A stretch of 64,000 bases of DNA from Rhodococcus sp. KRD197. GTDB taxonomy: Bacteria; Actinomycetota; Actinomycetes; Mycobacteriales; Mycobacteriaceae. Within the stretch, counting starts at the first letter, position 1. Each line of letters starts with the position of its first letter. The translations under genes and the position numbers were made by a program. A model generated the notes under the pieces. It searched no databases. It was not told the origin of the DNA and worked only from the letters and a program-made list of their open reading frames with translations. The stretch lies in contig NZ_JABFAO010000006.1 in the NCBI RefSeq assembly GCF_017168235.1, positions 124,001 to 188,000 of the forward strand, read 5' to 3'. This document shows, piece after piece, positions 5,984-15,382 of the stretch.

Positions 5984-6046
5984 GCGTACACGGTAGACCG
6001 AGAGGCGTTCGCGATAGAATCGACAATGGTTTCCGTTGCCGAATGT

Positions 6047-6062: not shown

Positions 6063-6806
6063 ATGTCGAATGATTCACCGCAAGCGCGAATCCACCGTGC
6101 GCTTACTGTGCACCGGTTGCTCGTCGATCCAGGAGGTTCCGGGGCGAGAACGCCACCGGCCGCTGCACACGGAACCGTCGCGCTCGGTGCACCGGCATCA
6201 CTGCCCTCGGTCGCATTGGGGGAAGTCCTGGGTGAACGGCGCTCGCGATACCGTTTCGGCCCGCTGGACCGGGATCGTCTCTCCACGCTGCTCGGGTGGG
6301 CCTTGGGCCCGGGGCGTACGACGGCTGCGCCGAACGGACCTCCCCGCACGCTACGGCTGAACCCCTCCGCGGGTGGACTGGATTCGCTCGACGTGCATCT
6401 TGTCGTCCTTCGCCGGATCGGTGACATTGCGGTCGGTACCTGTGTTTTCGAGCCAAGCGCACACGTGCTCCACCGAACAGGTACCGGACCCTGTGTCGAG
6501 GCGCTCGGATCCTGCCTCGTACAACCGCAATTCGCAGCGCGTGCATCGGTGTTCGTCGTTCTCGCCGGGCGCCTGGACAAGACACTCGTCAAGTACACCG
6601 AACGTCACTATCGCACCCTCCACGTCGATGCAGGGATCGCCGCGCAGAACCTGTACCTGGTCTCCACCGCTCTCGAACTGGCAGGCTGCGCGGTGTCCGG
6701 GTTCTATGACGACCACATCGCGAATCTGGTTGGTCTGCGTGATGACTCGGTCCCGCTATTGGCGTTCGCGCTCGGCGGACGCGGTGAGGTCGGCGAGCAG
6801 CGGTAG
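6063..6806 (+). CDS. SagB-type FMN-dependent azoline dehydrogenase
   Basis: The 247-residue nitroreductase-fold protein carries the SagB hallmark segment [17 protein letters not shown]. Lys177-Tyr178 correspond to the catalytic Lys-Tyr pair of azoline oxidases, and the conserved [19 protein letters not shown] helix follows. SagB enzymes oxidise thiazolines or oxazolines in modified peptides to aromatic azoles with FMN. Its end overlaps the convergent MFS gene by 51 bp, so it is in the RiPP locus but outside the main operon. SoxR lies divergently upstream. A generic nitroreductase is less likely given the KY motif and the YcaO neighbour. Confidence 0.85.
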
Positions 6807-7982
6807 CCGAGGGACCCCGAGCCGCAACGCCACTGCGCCTGCGGCAGCCAGCGCACACGCTCCCAGCACGATTGCCGCGGTGACACCGAACACTTCGGCT
6901 ACCGCTCCACCCGCTGCCGCGCCGAATGGAGTTCCGCCCATCGCGATCATTCGTGCCGTGGTGTTCACCCTGGACTGGAGACCGTCGGGAGTTACGGACT
7001 GCCGCACCACGATGCCGTTGACGACGATCATCGTGTTGGCTGCCTGATAGACGACGAGTACGACCAACGACACCGCCAGAACGCCCGTGGTGGACCATGC
7101 CAGCATCGCCGAGAATGCGACGAGCAATCCTGCGCAGGTGATGACACCGGTGCCGACCGCCCGCTGAATGCGTGCGCTGACAAGGCTGATCAGAAACGCT
7201 CCCAGCGCCGTCGCCGCATAGAGTGAGCCGAGTCGCGCGTCGCCCTCGTTCAGTCCGAGTTTCCGGACGCCGACGACCACCATCAGCCCCACCACCACGC
7301 CGTTGGCCAGGCTCACCCCGATGCCGACGGTGGTCAGCGCACGAACCACGCGATGACGCCAGATGAAGTCGAGGCCCTCGACGATCGACGTGCGAAGCGT
7401 CGAGCCGGCCATCGAAGCCGCAGCTCCAGCCGGCAGGGTGACCGTCGCAGTCACGATGGCTGCGATGAGAAAACACAACGCGTCGATTGCGATCGCACCA
7501 GGCGGACCCAACGTCGTCGCAGCGACTCCGCCGAGAAGCGGGCCGGCTATCCCGATGACAGTGCCGACACTCACCAGGGTGCCTGTCGCGTCGGCGATGG
7601 AATCTCGGCCGACAAGCGCAGGTACGACGCCGAAGGAGGCTGCGTCGAAGAACACGAACAGCGTCGAAGTGCTGAACGAGACGAGCAGGAGGTGGGCAAT
7701 CGTCACCGATCCGAACAGGTGTGCCGCCGGGATACTTGCCAGCGCGCATACGCTGGCAAGCTGAGTCGCCAACAGCACCCGTTTTCGATCGACCCTGTCG
7801 GCGAAGGCGCCGGCCAGCAGCCCGAACAGCAGATAGGGCAGGGCTTCCACCGCAAACGCGACGCCGGACAACAGCGGTGAACCGGTGAGCTGGTAGACGA
7901 GCATCGGCACCGCGACGATGGACATCGCGTTGCCGATCCAGGCGATTGCGCGTGCCAGAACGAAGCGACGAAACGGCGTCAC
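6756..7982 (-). CDS. MFS exporter of the azole-peptide cluster
   Basis: A 408-residue major facilitator protein with about 12 predicted hydrophobic helices. It starts at GTG 7982 within the stop of the YcaO gene (GTGA), giving VTPFRRFVLARAIAWIGNAM. The loop between helices 2 and 3 has the MFS motif ADRVDRKRVLL. It resembles the TetA-like drug-efflux group rather than sugar transporters. As the last gene of the coupled operon it probably exports the mature modified peptide or gives self-protection. The longer reading frame upstream of 7982 is only a shadow of the YcaO gene. Confidence 0.85.
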   Translation of the reverse strand: MTPFRRFVLARAIAWIGNAMSIVAVPMLVYQLTGSPLLSGVAFAVEALPYLLFGLLAGAFADRVDRKRVLLATQLASVCALASIPAAHLFGSVTIAHLLLVSFSTSTLFVFFDAASFGVVPALVGRDSIADATGTLVSVGTVIGIAGPLLGGVAATTLGPPGAIAIDALCFLIAAIVTATVTLPAGAAASMAGSTLRTSIVEGLDFIWRHRVVRALTTVGIGVSLANGVVVGLMVVVGVRKLGLNEGDARLGSLYAATALGAFLISLVSARIQRAVGTGVITCAGLLVAFSAMLAWSTTGVLAVSLVVLVVYQAANTMIVVNGIVVRQSVTPDGLQSRVNTTARMIAMGGTPFGAAAGGAVAEVFGVTAAIVLGACALAAAGAVALRLGVPRLPLLADLTASAERERQ

Positions 7983-9337
7983 AGGCTCGGTGGTGGTGTC
8001 AGCAACAAGGTGCTCGGATCCGCCGGGTCGCAGCTGGGCGCATACCGTCGGGCGATCTCCCGCCACCGCGGCAACCCGAAGTATGGAAAAGCTGCCGGGG
8101 CGTTGGGAATCAGACCCGAGGCGCACACACGCGCCACCCGCAGCGGCGTCAGTGCAACGTCGGGGGTGGTGATATCGCAGACGACGACCTCGTGGCCGGC
8201 AGCGAAGAGAGCAGCCCGCAGACCCTCGGAGGTGCCCTGTGGGAGAGCGTCGATCGACACCACCTCGGACGGGTCGGTGAACCGTGGCAGCAACGACGCC
8301 TGAACTCGCGGATCCAGCCACACCTGCGCCTGAGCACCCAGATCTCGGACATGTTCGCTTCGCGGACCAGCGGCGTCGAGATAGGTGCGATCGGCGCGAT
8401 GCTCGAGATACAGACCCGAGGACAGCACGCCGGCGCGCATCGACCCGAACACCCACCCGTCGGCGTCGAGCAGTCCCCGGGTGAAGACCCAGCTGTGGAT
8501 CGCTTCGAGAACCGCTTTGCGCGCAGTCGCGACGGGGTCGAGTTTCGCGGAGAACCCTCCTGCGACAATCCCGAGTTCGGGGTCGCGTATCACTGCTGCT
8601 ACCACCGGAACCCCGAAGTACGACGGGAGTTCGAGAAGGTGACACTGCAGTCGTGAATCGCCCAGATCGTCGGTGAGACCGGGGACCGACGCCGGATCGA
8701 TGCCTCGCGCGGGCAGATTGAGATGCCACCACAGCGACAGTGAATCCCGTTCGACGAGTTCGAGTAGTCCGCGCGCCGCCGCATCGCCGAGTCCCTGGCC
8801 GGTCGCGATACCCGCGTAATTGAGATGGTGAATCCACGGATCACGCTTTCGACTTCCGGTGCGCCAGTTGAGGTACACGTACGACGCCGGAATCGCCACG
8901 CGAGACCCGTCGGCGCCGACACCGTCCACCCAGGCGATCGGTGTGTCCTCGGTGAACTGTTCGAAGGGGAAGCCCTCGGACTGCAGCTGCCATGGCGCGA
9001 AGAACCCGAGATGGTCCGGACCCCAATGGCGCACGTTCGTCGCCCGGAGTTCCGCGGCCGTGGCGTACCGAAGTCCTTCTCGAACATGGTTTCCGCAGTA
9101 CCGTTCCACTGCCTCGCCTATCGCTGCGATTCGCGCACCGTCCTCGTCTGCGAAGGTGGTGCCGAGCGAGACCAGATCGCACGGCCAGTTACCGTGAGCA
9201 CGGGTGTCGGCGATTTCCGCGGTCAGGCCCACGTACCGACGCGGCATGCCGTCGACACGTTCCACCGGATGCAGAGCTCGAACAACCCCGGTCAACGGAT
9301 CGACGAGGTCCTCGGCAGTCAGAACAGGGGTGCTCAT
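7979..9337 (-). CDS. YcaO-domain cyclodehydratase
   Basis: A 452-residue YcaO protein. ATP/Mg-binding motifs are visible: AIGEAVERY (Glu75, Glu78, Arg79), LLELVERD (residues 191-198) and ARKAVLEAIHSW. The C-terminus ends in a proline-rich LLLTPPPSL tail, like the PxPxP tail of azoline-forming YcaO enzymes. These enzymes use ATP to cyclise Ser, Thr or Cys side chains onto the backbone amide. ATG 9337 overlaps the hydrolase stop (ATGA), and the YcaO stop overlaps the MFS start. It is not fused to the E1-like partner, which is encoded separately two genes upstream. This matches discrete C+D-type azole RiPP pathways. Confidence 0.92.
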   Translation of the reverse strand: MSTPVLTAEDLVDPLTGVVRALHPVERVDGMPRRYVGLTAEIADTRAHGNWPCDLVSLGTTFADEDGARIAAIGEAVERYCGNHVREGLRYATAAELRATNVRHWGPDHLGFFAPWQLQSEGFPFEQFTEDTPIAWVDGVGADGSRVAIPASYVYLNWRTGSRKRDPWIHHLNYAGIATGQGLGDAAARGLLELVERDSLSLWWHLNLPARGIDPASVPGLTDDLGDSRLQCHLLELPSYFGVPVVAAVIRDPELGIVAGGFSAKLDPVATARKAVLEAIHSWVFTRGLLDADGWVFGSMRAGVLSSGLYLEHRADRTYLDAAGPRSEHVRDLGAQAQVWLDPRVQASLLPRFTDPSEVVSIDALPQGTSEGLRAALFAAGHEVVVCDITTPDVALTPLRVARVCASGLIPNAPAAFPYFGLPRWREIARRYAPSCDPADPSTLLLTPPPSL

Positions 9338-10674
9338 GCGGGCATCTCCACGACGATGCCGCGCACCGTGCGACGGACGGCCTGCGTGCGACGGCCGTGC
9401 AGATGGTCCTCGCCGGTCTGTAGATCGCGTGCATGACGCGGGAACGAGTGGGCCGAGACGATCACCGACAGTTCCTCTCCATAGTGAATGCGTGTGGATA
9501 TCGGGCCGAGATGGACTGTGTTGTCGAGCGACATGCCCTGCGCCAGCTGTTCAGCCCGGCCGTCCCGTCGGTGGACGACGAGCATTGCCCCCCAATGCCG
9601 GTTGCTCTCGGCGGTGTCCACTCTGACCATGGGGGATCCGACAACGACGCCCGCTCGCGACGGCACCGGCCGTACCAGGCAATCCGAACGCCCCAGCAGG
9701 AAGCCGACATCGGCCCCGAGATCGCAGGAAAGGAAGGGCTGCAGCGGATCTGCGTCGAAGCTGCCGCCCGGCAGGGTTGTTTTCTCCACCGCCGTCGGCC
9801 ATGCGTCCAGGGGATGTGCGGCGCCATCGGACGCGCCGTACAACCGAGCGCCGGTCCATGGATGGCGCTCCAGTACGTCGTCGAGCCAACAGCTCATGCG
9901 CTCGCCGCGTCCGGATCCACGCATTCCGTGGTCCCATGGTCCAAGCGCCAGAGCCGACGGTCCGCCCCACCACGAGAAGAGGTCGACGGTATCTTGCGCG
10001 AACCAGTCCGCGGTCCCGCCCTGTGCCAGCAGCGGAATCGTCATTCGCGCCACTGTGCGCGATCGTTCTTCATCCGACCTGAGGGCAGACAAAACAGTGT
10101 GCCACGAGGTGATCGGCGGGTCGGATTTTGCGCCGATCTCCGAGACAGGAAGTGTCAGAAGCACATCGGACGCGCGCGACTCCTGCTGCGACACGGCACT
10201 GTCACCGTGCTGGGCCCACCAACCGTGCCGAGAAGCCAGATAGAAGGCCCCGTCCTTGTTTCTGGCAGTCTCTCCCATTCCCAGAGCCGGGACGACGACC
10301 GATACGCCGATCAGTTGCTCGAATTCGGATCGCTCTGCCGCCGCGGCAGTCTCGACGGCGCAGTGAGCACCGTACGAGGCACCGTACAGAACCAACCTCG
10401 GCGCATCCGGCCACCACGGCTGCTGCGTCATCCACTCGATCGAGGCCATGCCGTCGGCACCCTCCAGATCATATGGACGAAATGCTCCGGAGCTACCGTA
10501 TCGGCCGCGAACGTCCTGCACGACGGTGGTGAAACCGAGTTGCGCCCAGTGCGAGGCTTCGGCGAGATGCGTTTCACTGTTGTAGGGGGTGCGAATGAAC
10601 AACACCGCCCGTGGACGCCTCGATCGATGCACGAAGGTGCGGAGCCCACCGACAGTGCACTCCTGCGGCGTCAC
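9334..10674 (-). CDS. CocE/NonD-family alpha/beta hydrolase of the RiPP operon
   Basis: A 446-residue Xaa-Pro-dipeptidyl-peptidase-like serine hydrolase. Nucleophile Ser100 lies in GASYGAH, the acid is probably Asp223 in GGTADWF, and the base His249 is in GPWDHG. A C-terminal beta-sandwich domain follows from about residue 270. CocE-like enzymes cleave esters or amides, and some are prolyl peptidases. It starts with GTG overlapping the upstream stop and ends overlapping the YcaO start, so it is an integral part of the operon. Plausible jobs are leader-peptide removal or hydrolysis of a modified peptide. Neither is shown by sequence. No signal peptide is present. Confidence 0.85.
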   Translation of the reverse strand: MTPQECTVGGLRTFVHRSRRPRAVLFIRTPYNSETHLAEASHWAQLGFTTVVQDVRGRYGSSGAFRPYDLEGADGMASIEWMTQQPWWPDAPRLVLYGASYGAHCAVETAAAAERSEFEQLIGVSVVVPALGMGETARNKDGAFYLASRHGWWAQHGDSAVSQQESRASDVLLTLPVSEIGAKSDPPITSWHTVLSALRSDEERSRTVARMTIPLLAQGGTADWFAQDTVDLFSWWGGPSALALGPWDHGMRGSGRGERMSCWLDDVLERHPWTGARLYGASDGAAHPLDAWPTAVEKTTLPGGSFDADPLQPFLSCDLGADVGFLLGRSDCLVRPVPSRAGVVVGSPMVRVDTAESNRHWGAMLVVHRRDGRAEQLAQGMSLDNTVHLGPISTRIHYGEELSVIVSAHSFPRHARDLQTGEDHLHGRRTQAVRRTVRGIVVEMPA

Positions 10675-11357
10675 CGCGGCGGTTCCGGCATCGGTAGAAC
10701 GGGATGACAGGACACGCGCAGGGTGCGCAAGTCGATTGCCGTCACTCGATGCGGCGCCGCCGTCGGGAAGAACATCTCGGCCATCACCTGTGCAGCGACG
10801 AACTCAGCGGACGCAACGGACATCGGGTGGACAGGTGAGGACAACCGTCGGCCATGGGGGACCGGGGCGTAACCGTCTTCGATGCGGCGTCGATGCAGGC
10901 TCGATGCGGCGCGACGTGCTCGGACATCGGTCAACTGCACACCGTCGGGAACGATGACGGACAGGTTCCCGTCGCGGAAGCACGAGATGTGCCCGCCAGG
11001 CGTGAGTGTCTCGGCCTCGTCATCACTCACGGCTATGGATCGGGTGGACTCTCCCGGTGGCAGTAGCGAAGAGCCGGTGCGCGTCAGGAGACCGGTCAGC
11101 GCCGAGGCCAATCGGCCACTGCCTTCCACCGAGATGGCCTCCACCGAATCATCCACCGACACATGCCCCGCGGCGATCAAGGCAGACAGTGCGGCGCGAG
11201 GTCTGTCGGACTCCGGCGGCGTGTTGCTCGACAATGCCGCTGCGAGCTCGTCGAACTCGTCACAGCCGAGTGACAGTGCGAAGTGTTCGTCGTCGGCGGT
11301 ACGGAGTACGAAGCTCGAATCGGATTCGTAGAGTTCGGTTCTGGGTGCGAGATGCAT
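10671..11357 (-). CDS. RRE/E1-like partner protein (precursor-peptide-binding, TOMM type)
   Basis: A 228-residue protein with two parts. Residues 5-75 look like a PqqD-type RiPP recognition element: strands LYESDSSFVLRT and EHFALSLG, then helices with CDEFDELAAALS and a terminal LIAAGHVSVD. Residues 80-190 resemble a reduced ThiF/E1 domain with AISVEGSGRLASAL, and the C-terminus has VSCHPVLPMPEP. Such proteins present the precursor leader to a separate YcaO enzyme. ATG 11357 comes 15 nt after a strong hairpin that follows the precursor gene. The stop overlaps the hydrolase GTG. Homology is less obvious than for YcaO, so the assignment leans on context. Confidence 0.7.
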   Translation of the reverse strand: MHLAPRTELYESDSSFVLRTADDEHFALSLGCDEFDELAAALSSNTPPESDRPRAALSALIAAGHVSVDDSVEAISVEGSGRLASALTGLLTRTGSSLLPPGESTRSIAVSDDEAETLTPGGHISCFRDGNLSVIVPDGVQLTDVRARRAASSLHRRRIEDGYAPVPHGRRLSSPVHPMSVASAEFVAAQVMAEMFFPTAAPHRVTAIDLRTLRVSCHPVLPMPEPPR

Positions 11358-11371
11358 GATGTCGCCCTGGG

Positions 11372-11404
11372 CGGAGGCCTGCGCACCACGTGCGCAGGCC
11401 TCCG
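11372..11404 (-). terminator. Perfect hairpin between precursor and biosynthetic genes, likely attenuator
   Basis: CGGAGGCCTGCGCA (11372-11385) pairs fully with 11391-11404, leaving a short CCACG loop. It lies 6 nt after the precursor stop and 14 nt before the partner-gene start. Partial terminators in this position are common in RiPP clusters and keep precursor mRNA in excess over enzyme mRNA. Confidence 0.75.
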
Positions 11405-11410
11405 ACAGGA

Positions 11411-11533
11411 TCAGTCCTCGGTGCTCTCGGTGTCCTCGAAGGGGTTCTCCACCAGGGCGTTGCTGTGGCCAGCGGAGTGCGTCGCGAGTGACACGGGTGC
11501 CTGAATCGAACGGAACAGATCGTTGTCGTTCAT
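11411..11533 (-). CDS. Azole-RiPP precursor peptide, 40 aa, without cysteine
   Basis: The 40-residue frame starts MNDNDLFRSIQAPVSLA and ends FEDTESTED. The centre is THSAGHSN (residues 18-25) followed by ALVENP. AAGGAG lies 4 nt and CAGGAG 10 nt before the ATG. Its size, its position as the first gene before an RRE-type partner and YcaO operon, and the hairpin after it identify it as the precursor. It has eight Ser/Thr and no Cys, so any heterocycles would be oxazolines or oxazoles. Two His-Ser pairs (19-20, 23-24) could become His-oxazole units, which are good metal ligands. The acidic C-terminus could be a follower. The leader/core border is unknown. Confidence 0.75.
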   Translation of the reverse strand: MNDNDLFRSIQAPVSLATHSAGHSNALVENPFEDTESTED

Positions 11534-11581
11534 GGTGCTCCTTCTCCTGTTGGGAAACCGTTTGCTGCGCAACCGATTCGT

Positions 11582-11604
11582 GTTGCTCGAACGAGTCGAG
11601 CAAC
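11582..11604 (-). other. Stem-loop in the 5' leader of the precursor transcript
   Basis: GTTGCTCGA (11582-11590) and TCGAGCAAC (11596-11604) form a 9-bp stem with a 5-nt loop. It lies between the Fur/Zur-type box and the precursor start. It also follows the end of the upstream binding-protein gene on the same strand, so it could be a weak terminator of that gene or a leader-stabilising element. Confidence 0.45.
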
Positions 11605-11620
11605 GCAACCCTACGACACA

Positions 11621-11635
11621 TGACAATCATTTTCA
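11621..11635 (-). promoter_or_regulatory. Fur/Zur-type box at the precursor promoter
   Basis: Read on the minus strand this is TGAAAATGATTGTCA. It differs at one base from the 7-1-7 palindrome TGAAAATGATTTTCA that I recall for actinobacterial Zur sites. It lies 88 bp upstream of the precursor ATG and is strikingly AT-rich against the surrounding GC-rich DNA. Iron control in actinobacteria usually uses IdeR/DtxR boxes of different sequence, so zinc control by Zur is preferred. The match is by eye. Confidence 0.6.
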
Positions 11636-11644
11636 ATAAGGGAG

Positions 11645-12598
11645 TCAGTTCCTGTCGAGTTCCGCCATCACCGTCTCGAGGACCATCCGCAACGAGACCG
11701 TTCCGCGACCCGTTGCCCACACGCCCGCATCCACCTCGATCACTCGATCGTTCTGCGCCGCCGAAATGCCGGCCCAGAGCGGATTGGAGGCCAGTCGATC
11801 CGACAACGGCTCACTGTCGGATCCTGACGAAAATGCCTGCGCAAAAACTACATCCGGATCGACAGCAGCGATCTGCTCCACCGAGACCGTGGCAAATGCG
11901 TCGGTCCCGGCCTGCCACGGGTAGTTGCTGACCTCCGCGAGCAGCGATCCGACCGGAGTGGCGACGGAGTCGACCCCGAGGCTGCCCGGTTCGCCGTACA
12001 TCGACAGTGTCGTCACCTCGCTTCGTCGCTCAGCGGCTGCCTCGACCTCTGCGGTGAAGGCCTCGGCAGCGGCATTCGCCTCGGCTTGCCTGGCCGTCAA
12101 TTCGCCGACGGTACGCAAGAACTCGACCGAGTCCTGCCAGGTGGCGGGGTTGACCAGGTACATCGGGGCGACCTCCTCCACGGCACCTCGTAGGCCGTCC
12201 TGCACTCCACCGAGGCCGATGACCAGATCAGGCTCCGACAGAGCTATGTCCTCCACGTTCTCCTCCCCGAAGCTGCCGGTGATCTTGCGCATCTCTGCAT
12301 CGGGACCGGCGTAGCGGGGATCGAGGGCGAGATCCTCCCGATATGCAACCGGGGTGATGCCGACCTCTTTCAGTGCATCGACACAGATGAGTGTCAGGCA
12401 CGCAATCCTCTCCGCGGGCGCATCCAAGGTGACTACGGATCCGAGATCGTCGGTGACGGTGATCGCCGAATCGGCTGTGGTAGCGGCGGCGTCGGTGTCG
12501 GGTTCGGACCCACCACCACCGCAGGCTGTCAGGACACACGCCGCGACGGCGAGTAAGCCCAGCGCTCTGGGTCGGGGTGAAGCGAGCAACTTGCGCAT
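11645..12598 (-). CDS. Metallophore-type ABC transporter substrate-binding lipoprotein
   Basis: A 317-residue lipoprotein with a basic n-region, a hydrophobic stretch and lipobox LTAC with the lipidated Cys26, followed by a GGGGSEPDTDAAA linker. The mature part is a TroA/FecB/BtuF-like class III binding protein: ITVTDDLGSVVTLDAPAERI, then LTLICVDALKEVGITPV, then DLVIGLGG in the first lobe, and PLWAGISAAQNDRV in the second. ATG 12598 has a GGGAGA ribosome binding site. It is divergent from the permease genes with 32 bp between. It probably delivers a metal-chelate, siderophore-like compound, haem or cobalamin. The adjacent RiPP locus makes a peptide metallophore a candidate ligand. Confidence 0.88.
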   Translation of the reverse strand: MRKLLASPRPRALGLLAVAACVLTACGGGGSEPDTDAAATTADSAITVTDDLGSVVTLDAPAERIACLTLICVDALKEVGITPVAYREDLALDPRYAGPDAEMRKITGSFGEENVEDIALSEPDLVIGLGGVQDGLRGAVEEVAPMYLVNPATWQDSVEFLRTVGELTARQAEANAAAEAFTAEVEAAAERRSEVTTLSMYGEPGSLGVDSVATPVGSLLAEVSNYPWQAGTDAFATVSVEQIAAVDPDVVFAQAFSSGSDSEPLSDRLASNPLWAGISAAQNDRVIEVDAGVWATGRGTVSLRMVLETVMAELDRN

Positions 12599-12625
12599 GG
12601 AATCTCCCTTGCAGAATGATGTGAT

Positions 12626-12646
12626 GCGAAATGATAACCATTAGCG
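12626..12646. promoter_or_regulatory. Fur/Zur-type box in the divergent ABC importer promoter
   Basis: AATGATAACCATTA (12630-12643) matches the Fur-family core AATGATAATCATTA at 13 of 14 positions. It lies in the 32-bp gap between the binding protein and permease genes and covers the permease start codon at 12631. It could control both directions. A box overlapping the ATG also fits a leaderless permease transcript. Confidence 0.55.
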
Positions 12647-13620
12647 ATAGAGGCCTGCTTGCCCTGGGTATCTGCGCCGCCATTGGGCTCGTTGCGCTCG
12701 CGCTGTGCCTCGGCGACCCGACCGTCGGCCCGGCACATGCGGTGCAAGCCCTCATGGACGCGTCGAATCCCCTGCACACCCACGTCGCGGTGGTGCGGTT
12801 GCCGCGAGCCCTGCTCGGTCTTCTCGGTGGCGCCGCGCTCGGACTGGCCGGCGCGTTGATGCAGGATGTGCTGCGAAACAGAATTGCAGGACCGGAGATC
12901 CTCGGTGTTTCCGCAGGCGCAGCCGTCGCCCTGACGGCCGTGGCAGTGCTCGCCATCCCGGCGCCCCTCGCAGCCCTCCCGTACCTCGCCCTGTTCGGTG
13001 CCGCTGTCGCAGGCACCGCGGTGATCACAGCCGTCGGGCCCACCAGTGATCCCACCCGGGTGGTGCTGCTCGGTGCGGCCGTCAGCGCACTCGCCTCCGG
13101 AATGGTCATCGCTCTCGTCAGCCTCGGCACCGAAGGAAATCTCCCGCTGCTATTCCGCTACCTCCTCGGCAGCCTCAGCGAGCGAGGCTGGCCACATCTG
13201 GGCGTCGTGACGCCGTGGCTGATCGTGTTCATCCCGGTCGCATTGATCCTGCGGCATCGAGTTGCTGCACTCGCACTCGGCGACGACGTCGCTGCAGGTC
13301 TCGGCATCTCCGTGGTCCCCACCCGGGTGATGGCCCTGGTGTGCGCGGCCGTACTCACGGCAGCGGTGGCATCGGTATGCGGACCGGTCGCGTACGTTGC
13401 GCTGCTGGCCCCGCACCTCGCCCGCTGGATACTGCGCACGGCCAGTTCACGACGGGTGTTCGTGCTGACGCCGATCCTCGGCGCACTGCTCCTTGCCAGC
13501 GCGGACCTGGTGTCTCGAATCGCGCTCTACCCGATCGAGATTCCAGTGGGAATCACCACCACGTTGATCGGTGTTCCCGCTCTGCTGCTCGCGCTACGCA
13601 GGCAGGACCATGCCCGGTGA
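12631..13620 (+). CDS. FecCD-family ABC importer permease 1
   Basis: A 329-residue integral membrane protein of the FecCD/BtuC family with about nine or ten hydrophobic helices. The family signature RLPRALLGLLGGAALGLAGA, then RNRIAGPEILGVSAGAAVAL, and the coupling region GPVAYVALLAPHLARW are present. ATG 12631 lies in the Fur/Zur-type box and no Shine-Dalgarno is seen. Its stop overlaps the GTG of the second permease (GTGA), so the two subunits are coupled and form a heterodimer. The system imports chelated metals or related compounds. Confidence 0.92.
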   Translation: MITISDRGLLALGICAAIGLVALALCLGDPTVGPAHAVQALMDASNPLHTHVAVVRLPRALLGLLGGAALGLAGALMQDVLRNRIAGPEILGVSAGAAVALTAVAVLAIPAPLAALPYLALFGAAVAGTAVITAVGPTSDPTRVVLLGAAVSALASGMVIALVSLGTEGNLPLLFRYLLGSLSERGWPHLGVVTPWLIVFIPVALILRHRVAALALGDDVAAGLGISVVPTRVMALVCAAVLTAAVASVCGPVAYVALLAPHLARWILRTASSRRVFVLTPILGALLLASADLVSRIALYPIEIPVGITTTLIGVPALLLALRRQDHAR

Positions 13621-14594
13621 AGATGCGGTTCATCGTGCTGCTCGGCCTCGCGTGCATCACCGGGTTGATCGTCTCGCATGTCGTCTCGGGCCGCAGCGAG
13701 CTGGGGGCGTCGGATGCGATACGAGTACTGACCGGCACCTCCGAGATACGGGCGCACGAGATCATCGTCTGGAAGTACAGGTTGCCGCGCGTACTCGTCG
13801 GACTCGCAGCAGGCGCATTGCTGGCACTGTCCGGGGTGCTCCTGCAGGCGGTCATGCGAAACCCATTGGCCGAACCGTCCACCACGGGCGTGGGCTCCGG
13901 TGCCGCATTGGGCGTAGTGGTGTCGATCCTGCTCTTCTCCGGGCAATACGGCGCGCATATCGCGGCTCTGCTCGGTGCCGCCGCCGCCGGAATCGCGCTG
14001 TATGCACTGGGGCGTCGATCACTTGCCGTCGCGGGCATTCTCATCGGCGCCGTTCTCGCCGCGGTGACCTCACTGCTCCTCGTCGTCGATGCCCAGCCGA
14101 TGGGTGTGGTGTTGAGATGGCTGATCGGCTCGCTCAACGCCAGGACCCAAGATGACTGGAATCAATTGTGGCCCTGGGTAATTCTCCTGATTCCGGCGGG
14201 GCTATTATGCGCATCGCGCGCGAATGTGCTCGTGCTCGGCGACACCGCGGCGACCGGTCTGGGCATTCATCCCGATCGGACGCGCCTGCTGCTGCTCGGC
14301 ATTGCGGTGCTTGCGGCGGCGACGGCGATCACCGCGGCCGGTGCCGTCGCGTTCGTCGGGTTGATGGCACCTCATGCTGCGCGGGCCGTGGTCGGCGGCG
14401 ACCATCGCGACCTCATTCCCGTCAGCATGATCGGGGGCAGCGTGCTGCTGTCGGCGGCCGACCTGCTCGCGTTCAGCGTGTCCCTCGATCTCCCGGGCAG
14501 CGGTCCGAATGTGTCCGGACTTCCCGTGGGCGCGGTGACGGCTCTCCTCGGTGCGCCCTATCTCATCTGGTTGATCAGGAAGGAAGCACGATGA
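13617..14594 (+). CDS. FecCD-family ABC importer permease 2
   Basis: A 325-residue FecCD permease starting at GTG 13617 (VKMRFIVLLGLACITG). Signature stretches are YRLPRVLVGLAAGALLALSG, RNPLAEPSTTGVGSGAALG and AVAFVGLMAPHAARAV, where the last one contacts the ATPase. It pairs with permease 1 to form the transmembrane channel. The stop overlaps the ATPase start by ATGA, so all three importer genes are translationally coupled. Confidence 0.92.
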   Translation: MKMRFIVLLGLACITGLIVSHVVSGRSELGASDAIRVLTGTSEIRAHEIIVWKYRLPRVLVGLAAGALLALSGVLLQAVMRNPLAEPSTTGVGSGAALGVVVSILLFSGQYGAHIAALLGAAAAGIALYALGRRSLAVAGILIGAVLAAVTSLLLVVDAQPMGVVLRWLIGSLNARTQDDWNQLWPWVILLIPAGLLCASRANVLVLGDTAATGLGIHPDRTRLLLLGIAVLAAATAITAAGAVAFVGLMAPHAARAVVGGDHRDLIPVSMIGGSVLLSAADLLAFSVSLDLPGSGPNVSGLPVGAVTALLGAPYLIWLIRKEAR

Positions 14595-15382
14595 CCGAGG
14601 GCATTGCTGTACCTATTCTCGACACCGTCGACCTGTCGCTCGGCTACCGCAACCGGGTGATCTCCGAACACCTCGACTTCGCAGTCGAAAGAGGAACCGT
14701 CACCGCGTTGGTCGGACCCAACGGGTCCGGTAAGTCGACGCTGCTGATGGCGCTGGCCAGGGTTCTGCGGCCCCGCTGCGGGGTTGTCCGGCTCGACGGC
14801 ACCCCCCTCGGTGAGCGATCGTCGATCGACATAGCTCGCCGCCTCGCGATCCTCCCTCAGACCGCCGTCGCACCGCCGGGACTGCGGGTACGCGAACTCG
14901 TCGAGCAGGGTCGTTACCCTCGGCTCGGAGCCCTGTCGATGCTGCGGCGGTGCGACGACGAGGCGATGCAGCGGGCGATGTCGCTGACCGGAATCGAAAC
15001 CTTCGCGGAGAGAAAACTCGATTCACTCTCGGGCGGCGAGCGTCAACGCGCTTGGATTGCAATGGCATTGGCGCAGGAGACAGAGATTCTGCTGCTGGAC
15101 GAGCCGACGACTTATCTCGATGTCCGTCATCAGATCGATTTGCTGGAATTGGTCGTCGACCTGGTTCGGACGCACGGGAAGACGGTGGTGATGGTGCTCC
15201 ACGACCTCAATCAGGCTGCGCGCTACAGTGATCGGATCGTGGCTCTGCGTGATGGCGCGATCGTCGCCGACGGCCATCCAGCAGAAGTCGTCACAGCGCA
15301 CCTGCTCGAGCACGTCTTCGGGGTCCGCGCTCGGATCATCACCGACCCGGTGGCAGGCAGACCGATGTTCGTCGCCGAGTGA
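14591..15382 (+). CDS. FecE-type ABC importer ATP-binding protein
   Basis: A 263-residue ABC ATPase. Walker A GPNGSGKST is at residues 42-50, the Q-loop is in LAILPQTAVAPPG, the signature is LSGGERQRAWIAMALAQ, Walker B is ILLLDEPTTYLD, and the H-loop is VLHDLNQAARYSD. The TYLD after Walker B is typical of siderophore, haem or cobalamin importers (FepC/FecE). It completes a binding protein-two permeases-ATPase set and is followed 48 bp later by arcA. Confidence 0.93.
   Translation: MTEGIAVPILDTVDLSLGYRNRVISEHLDFAVERGTVTALVGPNGSGKSTLLMALARVLRPRCGVVRLDGTPLGERSSIDIARRLAILPQTAVAPPGLRVRELVEQGRYPRLGALSMLRRCDDEAMQRAMSLTGIETFAERKLDSLSGGERQRAWIAMALAQETEILLLDEPTTYLDVRHQIDLLELVVDLVRTHGKTVVMVLHDLNQAARYSDRIVALRDGAIVADGHPAEVVTAHLLEHVFGVRARIITDPVAGRPMFVAE

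Follow-up and report, generated by a model that had tools for sequence, protein, structure and literature searches.

A ten-gene cassette of Rhodococcus sp. KRD197 belongs, with near certainty, to the streptamidine (ami) family of YcaO-dependent ribosomally synthesized and post-translationally modified peptides (RiPPs), as a variant that carries an exporter of the major facilitator superfamily (MFS) and a canonical SagB. Its control sites are of the Zur type, and judging from the sequence the locus is likely to be under zinc control. The cassette occupies positions 6063–15382 of a 64,000-nucleotide stretch of contig NZ_JABFAO010000006.1 (positions 124,001–188,000 of the forward strand; hereafter, the window). 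Its genes encode SagB, the MFS exporter, YcaO, an S15/CocE hydrolase, a protein resembling a RiPP recognition element (RRE) joined to an E1 enzyme, a 40-residue precursor, a FecB-type lipoprotein, two FecCD permeases and an ATPase. Because the sites are of the Zur type, zinc is the likely metal, and the reading that we consider best, and probable, is that of a Zur-repressed peptide that is exported and re-imported to scavenge zinc. A first-pass annotation of the window had proposed an oxazole-containing peptide metallophore with its own importer. The unit of RiPP genes and importer, the Fur-family boxes and the emphasis on zinc have survived scrutiny; the lack of a precedent, the oxazole and metal binding itself have not.

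Zur-type sites before the ami genes

The motif derived for Streptomyces coelicolor Zur by chromatin immunoprecipitation (ChIP) is tGaNNatSatNNtCa (PMC5472717, in excerpt). The window box TGACAATCATTTTCA (11621–11635), 87 nt from the start codon of the precursor gene, matches it with no mismatch. Among the first 23 loci that we inspected, the best palindrome lay 64–91 nt before the precursor start in every case (23/23); in 22 of these it was within one mismatch of TGANAATNATTNTCA, and in the other, L025, it had three. The count was then taken over 45 loci, the first 23 included, in which a precursor or an operon start had been identified. Forty of them carry the Zur motif before the precursor or the first operon gene with at most two mismatches (none in 19 loci, one in 14 and two in 7); of the other five, L133 and the four motif-B loci, two have three mismatches and three have four. 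Outside this count are ten of the 16 loci of the wider group described below, whose precursors were not identified (L142–L144, L146–L148, L150 and L152–L154), as well as L162 and L166, the duplicates L120 and L122 (from the genomes of L041 and L037) and the copies L137 and L138.

Three controls bear on these numbers. The reversed motif reached two or fewer mismatches at none of the 45 loci; no more than 3% of 200 dinucleotide shuffles equaled the real site at any of the 40 good loci; and among 2050 random 200-bp windows drawn from these loci, a few of them over the boxes, 95 contained a site with at most two mismatches.

Fur-family-type palindromes had been claimed both before the precursor and in the divergent importer promoter. 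Both are indeed present, the second (TGATAACCATTAGCG, 12632–12646) being poorer, with three mismatches to the published motif. All 16 window-type loci (the window and 15 relatives) have a site with one to three mismatches in the importer promoter region; this count was made without a shuffle control, and 12 of the 15 relatives scanned share nearly the same left flank with the window. The importer box overlaps the ATG at 12631, so permease 1 may start further downstream. Before SagB, the window has only the weak, degenerate box CGACAATGGTTTCCG (6021–6035; four mismatches), and six Williamsia-type relatives have sites with zero to two mismatches at this gene, again without a shuffle control.

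In the open-access literature, we found no report linking Zur to the streptamidine family and none describing a YcaO zincophore, and a word search of the main text of the paper on the family (PMC8442711) returned no mention of Zur. As far as that literature shows, Zur control of the family, a well-supported inference, appears to be new.

Coupling of the RiPP genes to the importer

A precursor search of 401 family genomes returned 14 with a match, the host genome included; 13 were left after the match in L027 was dropped as a chance one, lying as it does inside a 428-residue open frame. Nine of 13 other loci, fetched as 20-kb stretches, hold all ten genes in the same arrangement. Across these nine complete loci, the RiPP genes are about 39–89% identical and the importer genes 70–81%; the ATPase match of L017 consists of separate pieces, at 55 and 70% identity. 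The flanks are not conserved in the fetched loci: the arginine-deiminase-like gene had no match, and the short-chain dehydrogenase/reductase and SoxR genes had distant ones. Because the cassette is complete in nine of 13 loci while the flanking genes vary, we regard the ten-gene unit as more than a chance assembly. Three more of the fetched loci (L024–L026) are of a second type, in which genes for a precursor, a hydrolase, YcaO and FecCD occur.

A scan of named species yielded 16 loci, all of which have genes for FecCD, the ATPase and the substrate-binding protein (SBP) beside those for YcaO and the hydrolase. They come from Williamsia, Rhodococcus, Nocardioides, Pimelobacter, Modestobacter, Planobispora, Thermoactinospora and Actinomadura (one labelled Kitasatospora), and six of them are contigs already among the loci fetched earlier. 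A profile built from 16 such YcaO proteins (A1) matched 34 of 394 class genomes, and the best scores formed two groups: 18 genomes above 600 bits (the close group) and 16 at 234–369 bits (the wider group). FecCD genes lie near the YcaO gene in 17 of 17 other close-group genomes and in 15 of 16 wider-group genomes (the exception is L154), as against none of 14 control loci with an unrelated YcaO. The controls came from 24 matches of a general SagD-type YcaO model, of which 16 were used, as stretches of 10–20 kb; the eight left out were five that fall within the clade being tested and three that neighbor fetched ones. Two of these 16, L162 (with FecCD) and L166 (with an SBP only), scored 228 and 270 bits with the YcaO profile and were for that reason moved to the wider clade. 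Co-occurrence of precursor and importer was the check that the first-pass annotation had proposed, and it shows that the RiPP genes and the importer belong together; RiPP operons that mostly lack the importer were not what we found.

Where the gene order is the published one (L123, L125, L128 and L131), the importer genes directly precede the precursor gene on the same strand. A separate observation concerns genome G477 (3.5 Mb), in which three precursor–YcaO clusters (L136, L137 and L138) encode identical precursors and the importer is found in the stretch of one.

Zinc genes in the host genome and in related loci

In the 5.56-Mb draft host genome, TGANAATNATTNTCA is matched exactly at a single place, the box TGACAATCATTTTCA. 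Five sites of that genome are within one mismatch of TGANAATNATTNTCA: the exact one at this locus, one that sits 7 nt before a COG0523 GTPase gene, and three that we took to be chance occurrences, since they lie inside genes for a SulP/carbonic anhydrase protein, a permease and a glycosyltransferase (the last just before the next gene). The first of the three (L049:5785–5799), a one-mismatch site just inside the start of its gene and perhaps due to chance, is recorded here because carbonic anhydrase is a zinc enzyme.

The host's divergent promoter between L28 (rpmB2) and a cobW-like gene carries TGACAATCGTTTTCG and TGACAATCGTTGTCG, each with two mismatches. Promoters of the rpmB/cobW type are classical Zur targets (PMC6103462 and PMC7174638, both in excerpt). 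The locus and the usual Zur targets of the same genome share an operator that fits the ChIP-derived motif. The host encodes two Fur-family proteins, one of whose genes adjoins an SmtB-like gene and the other a catalase-like gene, these neighbors having been named by reading their sequences.

Genes for COG0523-like or Zur-like proteins, or both, occur inside five of 38 close loci (the window and duplicate contigs having been dropped), three of 16 wider-group loci and one of the two clade members found among the controls, versus one of the 14 controls. The chance expectation is about 0.03 per 20 kb, as calculated from the seven cobW-family genes and one Zur gene in the host's own 5.56 Mb. The regulators encoded in ami loci score higher against Zur than against FurA (91–154 vs. 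32–48 bits; 154 vs. 33 in one instance), and CxCC and GxxxxGKT patterns are present in five of the eight COG0523-like proteins. In L141 (12733–17842), genes for a motif-B precursor (GTNALV; see below) and for COG0523-like, Zur-like and ZnuA-like proteins stand together.

Gene content and family membership

All parts of the cassette that had been named earlier (precursor, hydrolase, YcaO, MFS exporter, nearby SagB and adjoining FecBCD-type importer) are present in one unit, as judged by matches to family profiles. The MFS, YcaO, hydrolase, RRE/E1-like, precursor and lipoprotein genes are on the minus strand; SagB, on the plus strand, is convergent with the MFS gene, and the permease and ATPase genes diverge from the lipoprotein gene. 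The chain of 4-nt overlaps described in the first-pass annotation could be read directly from the sequence (E1-like/hydrolase, 10671–10674; hydrolase/YcaO, 9334–9337; YcaO/MFS, 7979–7982, given a GTG start at 7982 for the MFS gene). Similar overlaps join the two permease genes (13617–13620) and the second permease gene to the ATPase gene (14591–14594). Simple promoter and terminator scans did no better than shuffles.

What places this locus in the streptamidine family? The precursor (11411–11533, minus strand) matches the NCBIfam model NF040714, streptamidine family RiPP, at 52.2 bits (cut-off 40) and is thus of the AmiA type. A Rhodococcus rhodochrous plasmid carries a related precursor gene, annotated as amiA of the same family, and the YcaO linked to it is 50% identical to that of the window. 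By profile A1, the YcaO fits a single ami clade, in which window-type and published-order loci score above 600 bits before a gap down to 369. Genes of the AmiB, AmiC and FecBCDE types are present beside the precursor. The family was published in 2021 together with its FecBCDE importers and a hypothesis of metal import, so the earlier statement that no precedent was established does not stand; no other peptide family is as abundant near the stand-alone YcaO proteins of Actinobacteria, and with Firmicutes it spans more than 230 species, over 230 clusters with FecBCDE genes being described (PMC8442711). The published gene order is amiF-A-B-C-D-E-T (PMC8442711).

The AmiD-type YcaO cyclodehydratase (7979–9337, minus strand) matches PF02624 (1.9e-46) and, slightly below the cut-off, TIGR03604 (1.5e-62). 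The AmiC-type S15/CocE hydrolase (9334–10674, minus strand; PF02129, 8.5e-21) is a probable leader protease, and amiC is essential in the model cluster (PMC8442711). The 228-residue partner (10671–11357, minus strand) is encoded in the chain, and the sequence basis of its RRE/E1 label is weak (TIGR03882, below cut-off at E = 1e-4). Its AlphaFold model, read by eye, has an N-terminal unit of three strands and helix followed by a Rossmann-like part; the protein aligns at 28% identity with the one at the AmiB position of L123, and a profile made from the AmiB-like alignment had no meaningful hit in the PDB. Its assignment as AmiB comes from the weak hidden Markov model match, position and alignment.

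The SagB-family dehydrogenase (6063–6806, plus strand; TIGR03605, 109.5 bits, cut-off 78.4) is the probable counterpart of AmiE. Two proteins at the AmiE position score weakly on the same model (41 and 22 bits), and amiE is absent from many biosynthetic gene clusters (BGCs) of the family (PMC8442711). The MFS exporter (6756–7982, minus strand), of the TIGR00900 type (169 bits) and related to the enterobactin exporter EntS (115 bits), both scores being below cut-off, occupies the place that the AmiT1/T2 ATP-binding cassette (ABC) exporters have in other members; the cassette contains none of the latter. We see no bar to membership in this, because AmiT1/T2 were important, not essential, and the architectures varied (PMC8442711).

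The importer consists of the FecB-type lipoprotein (AmiF; 11645–12598, minus strand; PF01497, 2.2e-21), permease 1 (12631–13620; PF01032, 9e-73), permease 2 (13617–14594; PF01032, 1.2e-73) and a FecE-type ATPase (14591–15382; PF00005, 5e-32; FecE model, 307 bits, below the cut-off of 375), the last three on the plus strand. A profile of the SBP finds siderophore binders first, YfiY being the nearest with a solved structure (106 bits, 1.9e-29); the heme protein IsdE (38 bits) and a B12-binding protein (22 bits) follow far below. A heme or B12 importer is disfavored. The lipoprotein model has a predicted local distance difference test score of 85.7. In an alignment of 15 binding proteins, two cysteines besides that of the lipobox do not vary (C67 and C72 of the window protein; RIACLTLICVDAL).

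The precursor peptides

By alignment, the window precursor is divided into a leader (MNDNDLFRSIQAPVSLA), the core THSAGH and a follower (SNALVENPFEDTESTED), the core boundaries being taken from the streptamidine core HLSATH (PMC8442711). The stretch THSAGH-S offers three cyclisable residues. A heterocyclised core rich in Ser, Thr and Cys is not present in the precursor sequences, and the streptamidine family likewise has none (PMC8442711). In streptamidine, a six-membered amidine, not an oxazole, is formed on HLSATH without oxidation, leader and follower making up the remainder of AmiA (PMC8442711). The oxazole product proposed at first is thus at odds with the studied member, and since no oxidation occurs there, a loss of 18 Da, not 20, becomes the first expectation for the mass of the product.

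In an alignment of 24 precursors of motif A (HSNALV), from which near-duplicates were excluded, core positions 3, 4 and 6 (S, A and H) are invariant, as are S, N, A, L, V, N, P and F of the follower. Core position 1 is T or H (12 precursors each) and position 2 is variable; a second His stands at position 1 or 2. A pattern of Ser, Thr or Cys followed by N-(H)-A-(L/T)-V is common to motif A, motif B (GTNALV) and two further types (TCNHALV and SSNHATV). In the accepted ami precursors, Ser, Thr or Cys precedes Asn-(His)-Ala, chance matches to this pattern elsewhere having been discarded by position; the L166 candidate has Asn there. No NCBIfam model matched the one member tested of each of the two further types. 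The main text of PMC8442711 assigns no role to the ALV of the follower.

Some precursors are of unusual build. Those of L124, L127, L129 and L134 are tandem double units of recognition part, core and follower, as in AEIEEPEQ-LA-HLSATH-SNALVENPFD, an arrangement that recalls cyanobactins. A type marked by AHPTCNHALVADLFD occurs in Planobispora, Thermoactinospora and Actinomadura (L037:7294–7410, L038, L040 and L043) behind a Zur box with no mismatch; the one tested, that of L037, matches no NCBIfam model. A tiny candidate, MTVKKLKAKARNASVHSSNHATVALAKVAWR, precedes wider-clade YcaO genes in L149 (13456–13548) and L151, with a Zur-like box at one mismatch, and in L149 it too matches no NCBIfam model.

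The gap between the precursor and E1-like genes holds a near-perfect hairpin (11373–11403, minus strand; folding z −6.3). The same gap has a hairpin in all eight loci folded, the window and seven relatives; those of the relatives differ in sequence, with z from −2.4 to −7.2, and for the weakest, L033, six of 200 shuffles folded equally well. This stem-loop may act as an attenuator or as a 3′-end stabilizer, and it would suit expression of the precursor above that of the enzymes.

Proposed function and alternatives

Under zinc-replete conditions, Zur would sit on the precursor and importer boxes and repress both; zinc starvation would lift this repression. The 40-residue precursor would then be bound by the AmiB-like partner, cyclised by YcaO near THSAGH-SN (homology predicts an amidine at THSAGH) and cut by the S15 hydrolase. 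The MFS protein would export the peptide, and the FecBCD-type importer would retrieve it, alone or with zinc, if the presumed directions of transport are correct. A metallophore function for the locus is plausible in the face of one published negative on a relative. Zinc binding by the peptide, contradicted by that test on streptamidine, is unproven.

Several observations weigh against zinc scavenging. By liquid chromatography–mass spectrometry (LC-MS), streptamidine bound none of Fe, Co, Cu, Mg, Mn, Ni and Zn; it was negative in the chrome azurol S (CAS) assay; and a YcaO mutant behaved like the wild type under metal starvation (PMC8442711). On these three counts, metal binding as such, which the first-pass annotation had assumed, found no support in the studied member. 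The product was lost when amiB, C, D, E or the importer genes were deleted (PMC8442711), a result that for the importer is not predicted by a simple siderophore scheme. In our own data, the four motif-B loci tested have three to four mismatches and L133 lacks the Zur motif; neither of the host's two ZnuA-family genes has such a box at up to three mismatches; the control L167 also has a Zur-like gene (111 bits, vs. 53 for FurA); and the CxCC and GxxxxGKT patterns are missing from three of the eight COG0523-like proteins.

Of the alternatives, the one that survives best, and which we nonetheless rate as rather improbable, is that the locus is controlled by Zur and makes no zinc chelator: the peptide would be a signal of zinc starvation, or be recycled, and the importer would carry the free peptide. 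FecBCD-type importers classically serve metal chelates, the SBP is nearest to siderophore binders, and one core His with the following SN is invariant in the 24 motif-A precursors, where another His occupies core position 1 or 2; all of this argues for a chelate. The negative binding tests and the absent phenotype are what speak for a signal or a recycled peptide, and the authors of that study, who leave the role of the family unassigned, suggest signaling or development (PMC8442711).

We think it unlikely that the metal chelated by the peptide is iron, copper, nickel or cobalt and the repressor a Fur-family protein distinct from Zur. FecBCD homologues are mostly importers of iron chelates, Fur-family boxes resemble one another, and the box at this locus is not far from the enterobacterial-type Fur box. 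In actinobacteria, however, iron is mostly under IdeR/DtxR, which has a different box; the two Fur-family proteins found in the genome stand beside SmtB-like and catalase-like genes, and the sites fit the Zur ChIP motif and recur before rpmB2/cobW. The negative CAS result for streptamidine also tells against such a chelator (PMC8442711).

It is very improbable that the product is an antibacterial azole peptide comparable to plantazolicin or goadsporin, against which the ABC system would protect the producer. YcaO, a SagB-like dehydrogenase, an E1-like partner and an exporter are the usual set for such a product, but the Ser/Thr/Cys-rich core is missing, core and follower are strongly conserved across several families, the ABC system is of the importer type, and streptamidine has neither antibacterial nor antifungal activity (PMC8442711). 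That importer and RiPP genes are mere chance neighbors, as the opposite orientation of the permease–ATPase and RiPP genes in the window variant might suggest, is scarcely credible given their coupling across many genera and the published-order loci in which importer genes precede the precursor on its own strand.

Zinc scavenging by a re-imported peptide can also be put more boldly. On this tentative and less probable extension, the whole streptamidine family would serve Zur-repressed zinc acquisition, the first by YcaO chemistry, and the isolated streptamidine would be a fragment of a re-imported and cut ligand. The working ligand would keep the “follower” part, in which the residue preceding the invariant Asn would be heterocyclised; this idea draws on the Ser, Thr or Cys before Asn-(His)-Ala in the accepted precursors and on the open role of ALV, which together would make the SNALV part belong to the ligand. 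If streptamidine were such a fragment, one could explain why the dehydrogenase is essential despite the unoxidised product, why both streptamidine and the shorter forms of it disappear on importer deletion, and why zinc is not bound by the fragment as isolated. The conserved Zur-type site makes the role of the streptamidine family specifically and cheaply testable. If true, a ribosomal route to zincophores would be added, and a class of importers with unassigned cargo explained.

Comparison with known systems

The closest known system is the streptamidine BGC of Streptomyces albidoflavus J1074, which has the same precursor family, AmiB/C/D order and FecBCDE importer, and a dehydrogenase that is the probable counterpart of SagB (PMC8442711; NF040714, NF040715). 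Streptamidine AmiA and the window precursor share the follower SNALVENPF and core residues Ser3, Ala4 and His6, and their cores differ as HLSATH and THSAGH. The window has an MFS exporter in contrast to the AmiT1/T2 ABC exporters; its canonical SagB gene is convergent, and its SBP gene diverges from those of the permeases.

Bottromycin is an antibacterial peptide and methanobactin a metal-binding RiPP; the coelibactin locus of S. coelicolor holds, to our knowledge, no YcaO gene. That locus is a Zur-controlled zincophore cluster, of the metallophore type as proposed for the window locus and with the same 15-bp operator motif (PMC5472717 and PMC6103462, in excerpt), and it differs from the window locus in being non-ribosomal (PMC3430247, in excerpt). 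Klebsazolicin and bottromycin, too, have amidine rings made by YcaO proteins; klebsazolicin is antibacterial, unlike streptamidine, and the main text of the same paper mentions no importer link for either (PMC8442711). Bufferins and other RiPP metallophores of that origin, which like the proposed product bind metal, are made instead by multinuclear non-heme iron-dependent oxidative enzymes (PMC12452194, PMC13174530 and PMC12710340, in excerpt); bufferins chelate excess copper (PMC12452194, in excerpt).

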